From an uncultured Desulfocapsa sp. (GTDB lineage Bacteria > Desulfobacterota > Desulfobulbia > Desulfobulbales > Desulfocapsaceae): a stretch of 46,072 nt of DNA. A program made the position numbers and the translations under genes. This document shows positions 14,949 to 46,072 of the stretch, one piece after another; position 1 is the stretch's first letter, and each line of letters opens with the position of its first letter. The stretch spans positions 1-46,072 of the forward strand of contig CAMZKT010000002.1 in assembly GCA_947311435.1 (NCBI GenBank). The letters run 5' to 3'. Under the pieces are notes generated by a model. That model had not been told where the DNA came from. It ran no database searches and saw only the letters and a list, made by a program, of their open reading frames with translations.

Positions 14949-14971
14949 GTTTTTCTTGACTAATCAATTTT

Positions 14972-15121
14972 GACAGCGTCGTAAAAACTCTTCATCTTCT
15001 TCGTTGCTGTATTTTTTGTTTGATTACGACGTATCTTAGTACGTCGAAATCAAACAAAAAATACGCCCCTCGTATCTGAAGTTTTTTACTTACCCATCTC
15101 TCAATTGACCTTTTTACGAGT
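14972..15121. mobile_element. MITE-like palindromic element, copy 1
   Basis: This 150-bp element has a long internal hairpin with arms at 15009-15033 and 15040-15064, matching at 24 of 25 positions with a 6-nt loop. Short outer inverted repeats TCGTAAAAA (14979-14987) and TTTTTACGA (15111-15119) flank it. The 8-bp direct repeat TCAATTTT borders it on both sides (14964-14971 and 15122-15129), which looks like a target-site duplication. It is about 92% identical, without gaps, to copy 2 at 26425-26576. It encodes no protein, so it would need a transposase supplied elsewhere. Confidence 0.82.
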
Positions 15122-15129
15122 TCAATTTT

Positions 15130-23879: not shown

Positions 23880-23955
23880 GCGGGTGTAGCTCAGTTGGTA
23901 GAGTACAAGCTTCCCAAGCTTGGGGTCGCGAGTTCAAACCTCGTCGCCCGCTCCA
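23880..23955 (+). tRNA. tRNA-Gly (anticodon CCC)
   Basis: A full 76-nt cloverleaf with encoded CCA. The acceptor arm pairs GCGGGTG with CGCCCGC, the anticodon stem CAAGC/GCTTG holds the loop TTCCCAA with anticodon CCC, and the T arm has TTCAAAC. It reads GGG glycine codons. It stands at the head of the rimP-nusA-infB operon, where Escherichia coli has metY. Confidence 0.96.
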
Positions 23956-24646: not shown

Positions 24647-24658
24647 GTGGGGAATGAC

Positions 24659-26086
24659 ATGTTATCAGACTTAAAACGTATCATCGATCAAATATGCAGA
24701 GATCGGGGGTTTGACAAAAAGCTCCTGGTTGAGGCCATTGAAGAAGCCGTGGAATCAGCTGCTAAAAAGAAACTGGGTTCCAGGCGTGATATTGAAGTCC
24801 GCTTTAATGAAGAGTTCGGTGAGGTAGAGGTCTTTCAGTTTCGTACAGTAGTCTTGGAAGTTGAAGACGAGCAGACAGAGATTTCCCTTGAAGAAGCTCA
24901 AGTACTGGATCCGGAAGTGCAATTGACCGATGAGCTTGGCGAAAAAATGGAACATATTGAGGATCTTGGGCGTATTGCTGCCCAATCTGCGAAGCAGGTG
25001 ATTATTCATAAAATGAAGGACGCTGAGCGTGACGTTATTTTCGAGATGTTCAAAGACAGAAAAGGTGAAATTGTAAGTGGTATAGTTCAGCGCTTTGAAC
25101 GTGGAAATATGGTGGTGAATCTTGGTCGTACAGATGCTATTTTACCGCGTGATCAGCAGATTCCAAAGCGATCTTACAAACAGGGTGATCGTATCCGCGC
25201 TTACTTGGATGATGTTCGGCAAAACGCCAGGGATTCGCAACTGATCCTGTCACGTACGTGTAATGACTTCCTTGCAAAACTATTTACCATGGAAGTTCCT
25301 GAGATAGCCGAAGGTATTGTTGAGATCATGGGAGTGAGTCGTGAGCCTGGGTTCAGGGCAAAGATCGCTGTTAGTTCCATCGAAACAGATGTCGACCCCG
25401 TTGGTGCATGTGTTGGTATGAAAGGCTCAAGGGTTCAGAATGTTGTTCAGGAATTACAGGGAGAGCGGATAGATATTGTACCCTGGAGCCCAGATCCTGC
25501 AAAATATGTTTACAATGCGTTGGCTCCAGCCCATGTTTCTATGGTAATGGCTGACGAAGAAGCTAAAACCCTTCTTGTTGTTGTGCCAAATGATCAGTTA
25601 TCACTTGCAATTGGACGGCAGGGGCAAAACGTCCGCCTTGCTTCACGGCTTCTGGGGTGGCGCATTGATGTTAAAAGTGAGCAGCGATATGCAAATCTTG
25701 AGGATCCAGGCTATCAGACACTTCTTGCAATCAATGGAATAGAGGAACCCTTGGCCGATCAACTGCTTGCACGTGGTGTTTATTCTATTGAGAAGCTTGC
25801 TGAAGCAGATGTCGATGACCTCATAGTTCTTCGTTCAATCAATGAGGAGCAGGCTAAGATTCTGATTGAAAAGGCAAAGAGTTTAATTGAAGAAGGTGTG
25901 GTTACATTACCTTTGGCTAAAGAAGAAGTTCCAGGCGATGCTGATGGGAATGAGGCAACGAAGGAAGAACTGCCCGTGGAGAAAAAAGAAACTTCGGGTG
26001 TAGAAGAGATTGAGGTCGAACAGGAAGTGGCAGGCACTGAAGTTGATACTTCGGAAGTGCGTGTGGCCGGAGATGAGGAAAAATAA
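24659..26086 (+). CDS. nusA: Transcription termination/antitermination factor NusA
   Basis: The 475-residue protein shows the NusA order: N-terminal RNA polymerase-binding domain with VEAIEEAVESAAKKK, S1 domain (GEIVSGIVQRF, DAILPRDQQIP), KH1 with GACVGMKGSRVQNVV, KH2 with LAIGRQGQNVRLAS, and a helix-hairpin-helix segment. An acidic Glu-rich tail of about 50 residues follows. I chose ATG 24659, with GGGGA just upstream, over the in-frame GTG 24647. NusA modulates pausing, termination and rRNA antitermination, and may regulate this operon itself. Confidence 0.96.
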   Translation: MLSDLKRIIDQICRDRGFDKKLLVEAIEEAVESAAKKKLGSRRDIEVRFNEEFGEVEVFQFRTVVLEVEDEQTEISLEEAQVLDPEVQLTDELGEKMEHIEDLGRIAAQSAKQVIIHKMKDAERDVIFEMFKDRKGEIVSGIVQRFERGNMVVNLGRTDAILPRDQQIPKRSYKQGDRIRAYLDDVRQNARDSQLILSRTCNDFLAKLFTMEVPEIAEGIVEIMGVSREPGFRAKIAVSSIETDVDPVGACVGMKGSRVQNVVQELQGERIDIVPWSPDPAKYVYNALAPAHVSMVMADEEAKTLLVVVPNDQLSLAIGRQGQNVRLASRLLGWRIDVKSEQRYANLEDPGYQTLLAINGIEEPLADQLLARGVYSIEKLAEADVDDLIVLRSINEEQAKILIEKAKSLIEEGVVTLPLAKEEVPGDADGNEATKEELPVEKKETSGVEEIEVEQEVAGTEVDTSEVRVAGDEEK

Positions 26087-26303
26087 AAGCAAACAACCGA
26101 TTCGAACCTGCATAATATGTCGTGGACGTTTTATGAAAGAAATGCTTGAGCGATATGTGTGGAAGCGTGAGTCGGGGGGCCTGGTGTTGGATCAATTGCA
26201 CAGTATGCCAGGAAGAGGGGCGTACTGTTGCAGTGATGAGAAGTGTCGAAAAGTGTTTGTGAATTGTAAACGGGGATGGAAACGGGCTTTTCGCCTTAAT
26301 TGA
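26073..26303 (+). CDS. ylxR: YlxR/RnpM family RNA-binding protein
   Basis: The 76-residue protein matches the YlxR (DUF448) family: RTCIICRGRF near residue 11, MPGRGAYCCSDEKC, and the basic end KRGWKRAF. The family lies between nusA and infB in many bacteria and binds RNA, including RNase P RNA in Bacillus. It begins at ATG 26073 and overlaps nusA by 14 bp, so it is translationally coupled. A longer in-frame extension from 26010 lies within nusA. Confidence 0.88.
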   Translation: MRKNKSKQPIRTCIICRGRFMKEMLERYVWKRESGGLVLDQLHSMPGRGAYCCSDEKCRKVFVNCKRGWKRAFRLN

Positions 26304-26424
26304 TTTCATAGTATACGGGTAATGACGCTTAATCTACTTATTCACTTACAAATGGGTAAGCAAGTATACCATAAGAAATGCGTATTTTCGTTAAGTTTAC
26401 AAGAAACAGTATTATTTAAAGATG
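26304..26424. other. Intergenic segment after ylxR
   Basis: Together with the mobile element and the 26577-26650 segment this makes a gap of 347 bp in an otherwise compact operon. Outside the element I see only AT-rich sequence and one half of its flanking direct repeat (26416-26424). The ribosome-binding site of infB lies at the far end. Confidence 0.6.
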
Positions 26425-26576
26425 ATGGCGTCGTAAAAACTCTTCACCTGCTTCGTTGCTGTATTTTTTCTTTAATTACGACGTACACTGGTACGCCGAA
26501 ATCAAACAAAAAATACGCGCCTCGCATCTGAAGCTTTTTACTTACCCATCTCTCAATTGACCTTTTTACGAGTTTA
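26425..26576. mobile_element. MITE-like palindromic element, copy 2
   Basis: This is the second copy of the element at 14972-15121, aligning without gaps over 146 bp with about 12 differences. Its internal hairpin (arms 26461-26486 and 26491-26516) matches at 22 of 26 positions and has an ACTG loop. It is bordered by a perfect 9-bp direct repeat, TTAAAGATG, at 26416-26424 and 26577-26585, unlike the repeat at copy 1. It lies inside the nusA operon between ylxR and infB, where the hairpin could pause RNA polymerase or stabilise mRNA ends. Confidence 0.82.
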
Positions 26577-26650
26577 TTAAAGATGGCGTTTTTTTTATGA
26601 TACTATCATAGTGTGTTTCTTTACGAAACTGAGAAAGACAGGAGCAGGGA

Positions 26651-29395
26651 ATGAGCAGGGTTAGGATTTATGAGTTGGCTAAAGAGGCCGGTATGGCCAG
26701 CAAGGCTTTGGCGGAGAAACTGATTGCATTGGGCTATGATATTAAAGGCCATAGCTCAACAGTTGATGATGAGACGGCTTTGAAAATCCGTAATGAGGTG
26801 ATCCAGGCATCCAATTCTAAATTAGTTGAGAAGAGGATTGAAGGAAATGAGGGGGCTGCAGTCATCCGTCGACGGGCAACTGTGATTCGCAGGCCTGCCA
26901 AGAAACTAGTAGCAGAAGAAGCGGATGAACTTGAAGAAATAGAAAAGGTTTCTGTCCCTGTTCCCAAAAGACAAGAAGAAACTTCTGCTCAAAAAGAAGA
27001 AAAATGTATAGAAGAGGAAAACGTCGCAAGCGATGACAGTGTCCTTGAAATCCCTTCTGTGAGTGCGCCCTCTGTTGAAGAATTGATTGCCCAAGATGAG
27101 GCAGCCAAAGAACAAGCCAGAAAAATTGCTGTGGAGGCTGAACAAAAAGCTGCTTTGGAGGCTGAAAAAGAGGCTGCCAAAAAGGCCGAAACTGTACCCA
27201 AGCAGGATGTCAGGATCCCATCCAAAACAGGGATCGCGAGAGTTGTTGGAACCATTGAACTTCCTAAGGAAGAACCCTCATCCCAACCACGAAGGAAACC
27301 TGCAAGGCCAGCCTCTAGACGGCCTGCTCCCAGGCCACAGGGTGGGCAGGGACAAGTACCTGCTGCTTCTACACCTGCGACTCGTGGAAAAAAGAAGGGA
27401 CGGAAAGAGGGGGGAGATCAGGAAGAAGGTGATTCCAGAAAAGGAGGAAAAGGCGGCTGGAAAGGCGCTAAGAAGGGTCGAAAAAACGTACGTGTAACTA
27501 AGTTTGGATATGAGAACGACCGTTATGGGAAACGTGGAAAGAAAGGTAGAGGGAAGGCGAAAAGTAGTCCCCGGCAACCCGTTTCCGAGATGAAGGCCAG
27601 TAAAAAGAAGATTAAAGTCTATGAAACAATTAGTGTTGGTGACCTTGCCCATCGAATGGGTGTTAAGGCTAATGAAATAATAGGTAAATTAATGGGACTA
27701 GGTGTTATGGCCACCGTTAATCAGGCACTCGATGTTGACACTGCGGTGCTGGTTGCTTCTGACTTTGGGTATGATGTTGAGCAGGCTATTACCGAGGAGA
27801 TCGTAGTAGAACAGCTAGATAAAGACGAGGGAGGTGGAGATGCAATCCCTCGATCTCCAGTCATTACAGTTATGGGCCATGTTGATCACGGTAAAACGTC
27901 GATTCTTGATGCCATACGCAAGACTGATGTCGCAGATGGTGAGGCTGGTGGAATTACACAACATATCGGTGCATATCATGTCAAATCGGATTCAGGGAAT
28001 GTCACCTTTGTAGATACTCCCGGGCATGCGGCGTTTACTGAGATGCGTTCTCGTGGTGCTCAAATTACAGATCTTGTGATTTTGGTAGTTGCTGCTGATG
28101 ACGGTGTAATGGATCAAACCCGTGAGGCTATTCATCATGCCAAGGCAGCTGAGGTACCAATTCTTGTTGCTGTGAATAAAATTGACAAGGATAATGCTGA
28201 TCCAGAGCGAGTAAAGCGAGAGCTCGCTGAGCTTGACCTGGCTCCTGAAGAGTGGGGTGGGCAGACAATTTTTGTAGAGATTTCAGCCAAAAAAAATATC
28301 GGTATAGATACGCTCCTGGAAAATATAGAACTCATGGCCGAAATGATGGAACTTAAAGCAGATCCTAACAGAAAGGCACGAGGGCGTGTGGTTGAAGCAA
28401 AGCTGGATAAGGGACGTGGAGCTGTTGCTACTGTGCTCATTCAGGAAGGAACGCTTTGCGCGGGTGATCATTTTGTTGTAGGACATTTCAGTGGTAAAGT
28501 TCGAGCCCTGCTTAATGACAAAAGCAAGCCAATTAAAAATGCAGGGCCTTCTATGCCTGTGGAGGTACAAGGGTTAACTGGTGTCCCATCGGCAGGTGAT
28601 GAGTTTGTTGTAGTGACCAACGAAAAAATGGCGAAAAATGTTGCACAGGCGAGGACACTCAAGGTTCGTGAAAGTGAGCTTGCTGCAGGATCAAAAGTTT
28701 CACTTGATTCTCTTTTTGATAAATTAAATGAGGGTGATGTACAAGAGCTGCGAATCGTTCTTCGGGCAGATGTCCAAGGTACCTTGGAGGCATTCGCTAA
28801 AGCTGCAGAAAAACTTTCGACCAGTGAAGTGAAGGTGAAAATTCTGCATGAGGGGACAGGTACGATGACGGATTCCGATGTATTACTTGCATCAGCTTCC
28901 GAGGCCATTATCATAGGTTTTAATGTTCGTCCATCTGGTAAAGTGAAAGAGCTGGCGTTGAAAGAAGGCGTGGATATGCGCTCTTATGACGTTATTTACC
29001 ACGCTCTTGATGATATTACTGCTGCTATGGTTGGGATGCTTGCGCCGGATTCAGTAGAGGATGTCATCGGTAATGCTGAAGTTCGGGAGACTTTTCAGGC
29101 ACCAAAGGTTGGCACTATTGCCGGTTGTTCCGTGACAGATGGGAAAATTTTACGCAATGCATTGGTTCATGTCCTCCGTGATGGTGTCGTGGTGTATACA
29201 GGAAAGATCGAGTCATTGCGTCGCTTTAAGGACGATGCTAAGGAGGTTCTGTCCGGTTATGAATGTGGTATGTCAATTGAAAACTTCAATGATATTAAAG
29301 TCGGGGACAATCTTGAATGTTTTGTGATGAAAGAGGTTGCAGCGACTCTTGGTGCAACTTTGGATGAGAAGGACTCTGACGCTGATGACGTGTAA
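26651..29395 (+). CDS. infB: Translation initiation factor IF-2
   Basis: The 914-residue GTPase has an N-terminal IF2_N segment (VRIYELAKEAG) and a charged low-complexity linker rich in Glu, Lys, Arg and Gly (about residues 60-320). A second IF2_N-like segment (ETISVGDLAHRMGVKANE) follows. The G domain has G1 GHVDHGKT at residues 409-416, DTPGHAAFT and NKID. It places initiator tRNA on the 30S subunit. An AGGAG lies before ATG 26651. The gap before it carries the palindromic element. Confidence 0.97.
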   Translation: MSRVRIYELAKEAGMASKALAEKLIALGYDIKGHSSTVDDETALKIRNEVIQASNSKLVEKRIEGNEGAAVIRRRATVIRRPAKKLVAEEADELEEIEKVSVPVPKRQEETSAQKEEKCIEEENVASDDSVLEIPSVSAPSVEELIAQDEAAKEQARKIAVEAEQKAALEAEKEAAKKAETVPKQDVRIPSKTGIARVVGTIELPKEEPSSQPRRKPARPASRRPAPRPQGGQGQVPAASTPATRGKKKGRKEGGDQEEGDSRKGGKGGWKGAKKGRKNVRVTKFGYENDRYGKRGKKGRGKAKSSPRQPVSEMKASKKKIKVYETISVGDLAHRMGVKANEIIGKLMGLGVMATVNQALDVDTAVLVASDFGYDVEQAITEEIVVEQLDKDEGGGDAIPRSPVITVMGHVDHGKTSILDAIRKTDVADGEAGGITQHIGAYHVKSDSGNVTFVDTPGHAAFTEMRSRGAQITDLVILVVAADDGVMDQTREAIHHAKAAEVPILVAVNKIDKDNADPERVKRELAELDLAPEEWGGQTIFVEISAKKNIGIDTLLENIELMAEMMELKADPNRKARGRVVEAKLDKGRGAVATVLIQEGTLCAGDHFVVGHFSGKVRALLNDKSKPIKNAGPSMPVEVQGLTGVPSAGDEFVVVTNEKMAKNVAQARTLKVRESELAAGSKVSLDSLFDKLNEGDVQELRIVLRADVQGTLEAFAKAAEKLSTSEVKVKILHEGTGTMTDSDVLLASASEAIIIGFNVRPSGKVKELALKEGVDMRSYDVIYHALDDITAAMVGMLAPDSVEDVIGNAEVRETFQAPKVGTIAGCSVTDGKILRNALVHVLRDGVVVYTGKIESLRRFKDDAKEVLSGYECGMSIENFNDIKVGDNLECFVMKEVAATLGATLDEKDSDADDV

Positions 29396-45957: not shown

Positions 45958-45970
45958 AGGTAAAGAAATC

Positions 45971-46072
<102 letters not shown>

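Follow-up and report, generated by a model that had tools for sequence, protein, structure and literature searches.

The window analysed here, a stretch of 46,072 nt from an uncultured Desulfocapsa sp. (contig CAMZKT010000002.1), contains nusA (24647-26086), ylxR (26073-26303, + strand), infB (26651-29395, + strand) and rbfA (from 29416), and a short repeated element lies between ylxR and infB, which is the gene context given in the initial annotation. The start codon of infB and its AGGAG-type ribosome site are intact. Within the ylxR-infB gap, the element is followed at 26590-26612 by TGATAGTATCATAAAAA on the - strand, which is probably a fossil terminal inverted repeat of an older element and is partly common to G004 and G005, the two closest relatives in which this gap is resolved. 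We considered whether the 114 bases on the upstream side (26304-26417) are another repeat and rejected this, since they have no second occurrence in the genome; part of this segment is absent from the gap of G004 and G005. Elsewhere in the window, a tRNA gene (23880-23952) lies upstream of rimP, and a 5S rRNA gene (45967-46072) is cut by the window end, which is also the contig end.

The element between ylxR and infB, hereafter copy 2, occupies 26423-26579 on the + strand (157 bp). Limits were set from an alignment of the copies in the genome together with end and flank scoring of 91 copies, and they were placed at these positions because the terminal repeats start with TGATGGCG and finish with TTATTA. 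The left terminal inverted repeat is TGATGGCGTCGTAAAAA (26423-26439, + strand), and the right one (26563-26579, - strand) has the reverse complement TAATAAACTCGTAAAAA, its usual form being TGATAAACTCGTAAAAA. Both ends follow the pattern TGAT(N4)TCGTAAAAA, the finish being an imperfect inverse of the start. AAGA flanks the element on both sides, at 26419-26422 with A26418 before it and at 26580-26583 with T26584 after it. A 9-bp flanking repeat had been described at this site, and TTAAAGATG is indeed present at 26416-26424 and 26577-26585, but the true duplication is the 4-bp AAGA; the longer repeat is apparent because the A-N4-T target preference combines with chance matches to the element ends. 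Among the 91 scored copies, the duplicated block is exactly 4 bp in 40, 5 bp in 11 and 6-9 bp in none, while an A precedes it in 68 copies and a T follows it in 73. Copy 1 lies at 14971-15124 on the + strand, with a right end that is 3 bases shorter, and its duplication, ATTT at 14967-14970 and 15125-15128, can be read directly from the sequence in the same A-N4-T context. The relatedness of the two copies, already noticed in the initial annotation, is confirmed at 91% identity over 152 ungapped bases and, by BLAST, at 92% over 147 bases.

No open reading frame of at least 80 aa is present inside 26423-26579 in the ORF list of the window, and an Rfam search gave no match for the element, reporting only the 5S rRNA and a tRNA in the window. 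The element is therefore short and transposase-less, it has terminal inverted repeats and a target duplication, its copies are dispersed with empty sites in relatives, and its ends and duplication are common to an autonomous element described below. These features identify the segment as a 157-base non-autonomous transposon (MITE), and 157 bp is also the modal length of the family. In this genome (2.45 Mb in 134 contigs, 89% complete), we found 47 matches by BLAST and 41 with a structure model, which puts the copy number at about 41, compared with 0-1 matches for reversed control patterns. Many matches are located at contig ends, suggesting that the repeat breaks draft assemblies. A survey of 54 copies showed that 46 do not overlap a called ORF, and no orientation bias was seen between co-directional genes (16 vs 12). 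Copy 2 diverges from the consensus by 3.2% and the others by 6.4-17.8% (26 copies analysed in this genome), although this comparison set was picked by similarity to copy 2, which could inflate its rank as the least diverged. Its low divergence suggests that copy 2 may be one of the most recent insertions.

The family extends well beyond this genome. Matches were found in 23 of 36 genomes searched, and the structure model, at an E value of 1e-5, matched 36 of 58 genomes, representing 24 of the 34 sampled genera of the order Desulfobulbales. Element ends and duplications of 4-5 bp can still be made out in the distant genomes, and some families of the order were consistently empty among the 58 genomes. 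The plasmid and phage collections that we searched contained no copies, and none of the papers in the library searched linked such elements to Desulfocapsa.

To find an autonomous partner, we looked for paired ends 0.3-4 kb apart around a gene and scanned the enclosed proteins for domains. This revealed one suitable transposase, an intact protein of 578 aa with DDE_Tnp_1_6 and DUF772 domains, which is encoded in the same genome (G000:C97) by an insertion sequence (IS) of 1887 bp with the ends TGATGGTCTCGTAAAAA and TGATGGACTCGTAAAAA. Paired-end candidates that enclose ordinary genes (Zn peptidase, dnaN, beta-lactamase-like, AIR synthase and others) were rejected as movers. The transposase resembles the IS1182 family in its domains and has IS1182 (NF033551) as its best NCBIfam match, but its score of 159 bits is below the cut-off of 270, and we therefore refer to the IS as IS1182-like and not as an established member of that family. 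Proteins related to this transposase are present in G011, G014 and G017, with an end of this type near the gene, and in a family-wide search G082 was found to contain three 1933-bp IS copies, in which homology ends at the terminal repeats or a few bases from them. MITE-type ends are present in the IS copies L110, L113, L146-L148, L152 and L153, and the left terminal repeat of copy 2 is identical in 17 of 17 bases to the right end of the L113 IS. Exact 4-bp duplications surround the IS copies L146, L148, L150 and L153 (CTCA, ACCT, ACTT and TAAT), each with an A before and a T after in the flank reading; L110, L113, L147 and L152 have no matching duplication. These 4-bp duplications distinguish the candidate from IS1272, an element placed in the IS1182 family that replaces stem-loops without producing a duplication (PMC5678879).

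The common ends, duplication length and target preference indicate that this ~1.9-kb IS is the likely partner that mobilises the MITE. The overlap between the two is limited to the 17-bp ends and their internal sequences are not common, indicating that the MITE did not arise from the IS by simple deletion. The IS was found in 4 of 20 genus genomes and was not found in the assemblies of the MITE-rich genomes G016, G010 and G013, which could reflect either gaps in the drafts or the use of a different transposase. When nine genomes with MITEs were searched with PF13751, the only matches were an unrelated IS1182 in G016 and the copy in G011. At L110 (1-2040, G000:C97), the candidate IS abuts a MITE and seems to sit within its right end, and the lack of a matching duplication suggests a later rearrangement. 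A separate IS1182-family element was found at 2091-3928 of L097 (Desulfocapsa TAG_MAG_00006), encoding a 502-aa transposase that scores 414.5 bits against the cut-off of 270. This IS has the ends GAGCTTGTCCGAGAA and is located inside the loop of a MITE hairpin with CTAG on both sides, so that one mobile element has targeted the palindrome of another; with these ends and this location, it was rejected as the partner.

Most of copy 2 consists of a long imperfect palindrome (26424-26551), which is predicted to fold into a hairpin at -32.7 kcal/mol as RNA of the + strand (z -3.5) and at -49.6 kcal/mol as RNA of the - strand (z -6.1). The palindrome covaries between subfamilies. In 38 diverged copies, compensatory changes occur in 23 of 39 pairs, a count that was reached in 0 of 500 shuffles, and 92.3% of the pairing cells are paired, compared with 82.7% in the shuffles. 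The covariation score is 0.285 vs 0.124 in shuffles, again with 0 of 500 reaching the observed value, and slid controls gave far lower covariation. The fixed copies of this genome (n = 26) behave differently: they contain 8 compensatory double changes vs 7.0 in column shuffles and 97 pair-breaking changes vs 97.7, which is random decay. Covariation between subfamilies together with random decay in situ indicates that the structure was kept during the spread of the element and not at individual sites. A hairpin that is kept between lineages while it decays after landing is probably of use to the element and not to the operon, and we infer that the palindromic shape aids the movement or spread of the element. 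A G-U vs A-C asymmetry had pointed to the - strand RNA as the selected molecule, but it vanished (62 vs 80) when all in-register columns were recounted with the three richest in G-U left out, and this claim was therefore dropped.

Covariation of this kind could also arise without selection if, by template switching at a quasi-palindrome, changes in one arm were copied into its partner arm. Such template-switch correction is known to act on long imperfect palindromes, and the mismatch types are strand-symmetric over all in-register columns minus the three richest in G-U, which is in keeping with this process. However, the same process should also act on the fixed copies, where there is no excess of compensatory changes, and some mismatched pairs are conserved that correction would erase: at columns 91-108, the - strand has GU in 30 copies out of 38 and UG in one more, corresponding to A-C on the + strand. 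We consider this explanation unlikely, and favor a hairpin that is maintained by selection on the spreading element.

Comparison with relatives supports the idea, put forward in the initial annotation, that copy 2 was inserted into the operon. The ylxR-infB gap is 350 bp here, compared with 52-141 bp in the genus relatives that have no intact element. G004 and G005, which are the closest relatives by NusA among those with a resolved gap, lack the element and have gaps of 141 and 135 bp; the segment is therefore not an ancient conserved spacer. Other MITEs of the wider family are found in the ylxR-infB gap of G015 and G016; they are oriented oppositely to copy 2 and lie at different positions, indicating separate insertion events. 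In addition, degenerate element ends in the gap of G004/G005 and of G013/G014 suggest older hits, and copy 2 itself adjoins the probable fossil end of an older element. The separate elements in G000, G015 and G016 and the degenerate ends in the two other pairs of genomes might be taken to mean that the gap is a specific insertion hotspot. Yet this part of the operon has its main non-coding space here, and the genomes contain dozens to hundreds of elements, so that repeated hits are expected to some degree, and a hotspot seems to us rather improbable.

What the insertion does to infB was assessed from the sequence of the gap. A strong RNA hairpin, as proposed for this site, is predicted for the element itself, whereas the fold of the whole ylxR-infB gap is not exceptional (z -1.6). 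The terminator scan of the gap gave none on the transcribed (+) strand, and a scan for sigma-70-like promoters in the gap found 0 where 0.9 were expected; the proposal that the element provides a new promoter for infB is thus not upheld. The element might still have been taken over by the operon for regulation or processing, its transcribed hairpin giving RNase III cleavage or partial attenuation as with the Correia elements of Neisseria, which are cut by RNase III in transcripts (PMC10969869), and its predicted strength on both strands is in keeping with such a role. We suspect that this is quite improbable, because the gap is without a + strand terminator and unexceptional in its overall fold, the + strand is the weaker folding orientation, in-situ copies show no compensatory maintenance of the hairpin, and other genomes of the genus cope with a gap of 52-141 bp or with elements in the opposite orientation. 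A hybrid infB promoter, made from the outward-facing TTGACC box in the right end of the element and flanking DNA, is very improbable: although the box is conserved in many copies and a -10-like hexamer lies 16-18 nt away in 9 of 42 junctions (4.6 in shuffles, maximum 10), this genome-wide excess is weak, the best -10 at the copy 2 junction matches at 3 of 6 positions, and the promoter scan of the gap was negative. The roles suggested in the initial annotation, namely polymerase pausing, attraction of NusA, transcript processing and a promoter for infB, therefore find no support in the sequence analysis, although pausing, NusA binding or RNase III cleavage may still take place, and the insertion is most likely near neutral for infB.

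Taken together, we consider it highly probable that copy 2 is a MITE moved in trans by an IS1182-like DDE transposase, that its hairpin is kept for the element, and that its presence is near neutral for infB. The DDE transposase of the ~1.9-kb IS would recognise the 17-bp terminal repeats of the MITE and integrate it with a 4-bp stagger into A-N4-T sites; here it would have inserted where the nusA-infB stretch offers its only spacious gap, beside the remnant of the older element. The hairpin would be maintained among actively spreading elements, most likely since transposition or spread needs the palindromic shape, and its use by host sites would not be what maintains it. A broader reading is that this is an order-wide, long-lived MITE family whose ~157-bp fold is conserved by compensatory change since its movement involves DNA in a single-stranded or cruciform shape; we advance this tentatively, as a possibility that we would not yet favor.

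MITEs are usually regarded as transposons with internal deletions that multiply in brief bursts confined to one lineage. Here, a single design of ~157 bp occurs in 24 of the 34 genera sampled and has only its 17-bp ends in common with the likely mover; if the broader reading is true, it would be a structured-DNA MITE that persists across genera and not a short-lived burst. The data also distinguish selection acting on the element from selection acting on the host site, and make a role of the hairpin in transposition testable. REP/REPIN sequences are likewise extragenic palindromes that occur in large numbers and are mobilised by an enzyme whose gene lies elsewhere (RAYT), but a Y1 tyrosine transposase and a lack of target duplication, which characterise that system, were not found here, the MITE having terminal inverted repeats, 4-bp target duplications and a linked DDE transposase. 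The Correia elements (CREE/NEMIS) of Neisseria, palindromic MITEs of roughly 100-150 bp that are transcribed with neighbouring genes, are similar in being short and palindromic; they differ in host group, and no promoter was found in the ylxR-infB gap. A close parallel in kind is the Chunjie MITE of Geobacter uraniireducens (178-235 bp), a short non-autonomous element with terminal and direct repeats and many intergenic copies, one of which lies in an operon (PMC10969869). Chunjie is described from one species, and the present family is set apart from it, on the basis of this description, in its length of ~157 bp, its covarying structure and its order-wide occurrence. A MITE in an operon is of an ordinary kind, with Chunjie as the precedent; what stands out here is the unusual breadth of the family and how cleanly selection on the element is separated from decay at host sites.

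Several variant arrangements of the element were also observed. Tandem arrays, with a short duplication after one element and the next element starting directly behind it, occur in L087, L089, L097, L100, L103 and L106-L109, including in G016. Elements of 77-87 bp with the same ends (L061 at 167-253, L065, L075 and L026) have apparently arisen from the 157-bp element by deletion. A second subfamily, which ends in ...TTTTTGACCTTTTTACGAGG(TCATCA), is found repeatedly where contigs stop (L066, L068, L069 and L070). Finally, elements in L091, L092, L093, L097 and L102 have a right-end terminus (TGATAAACTCGTAAAAAGGTCAATTGAGAGATGG) on each side, making these copies near-perfect palindromes.
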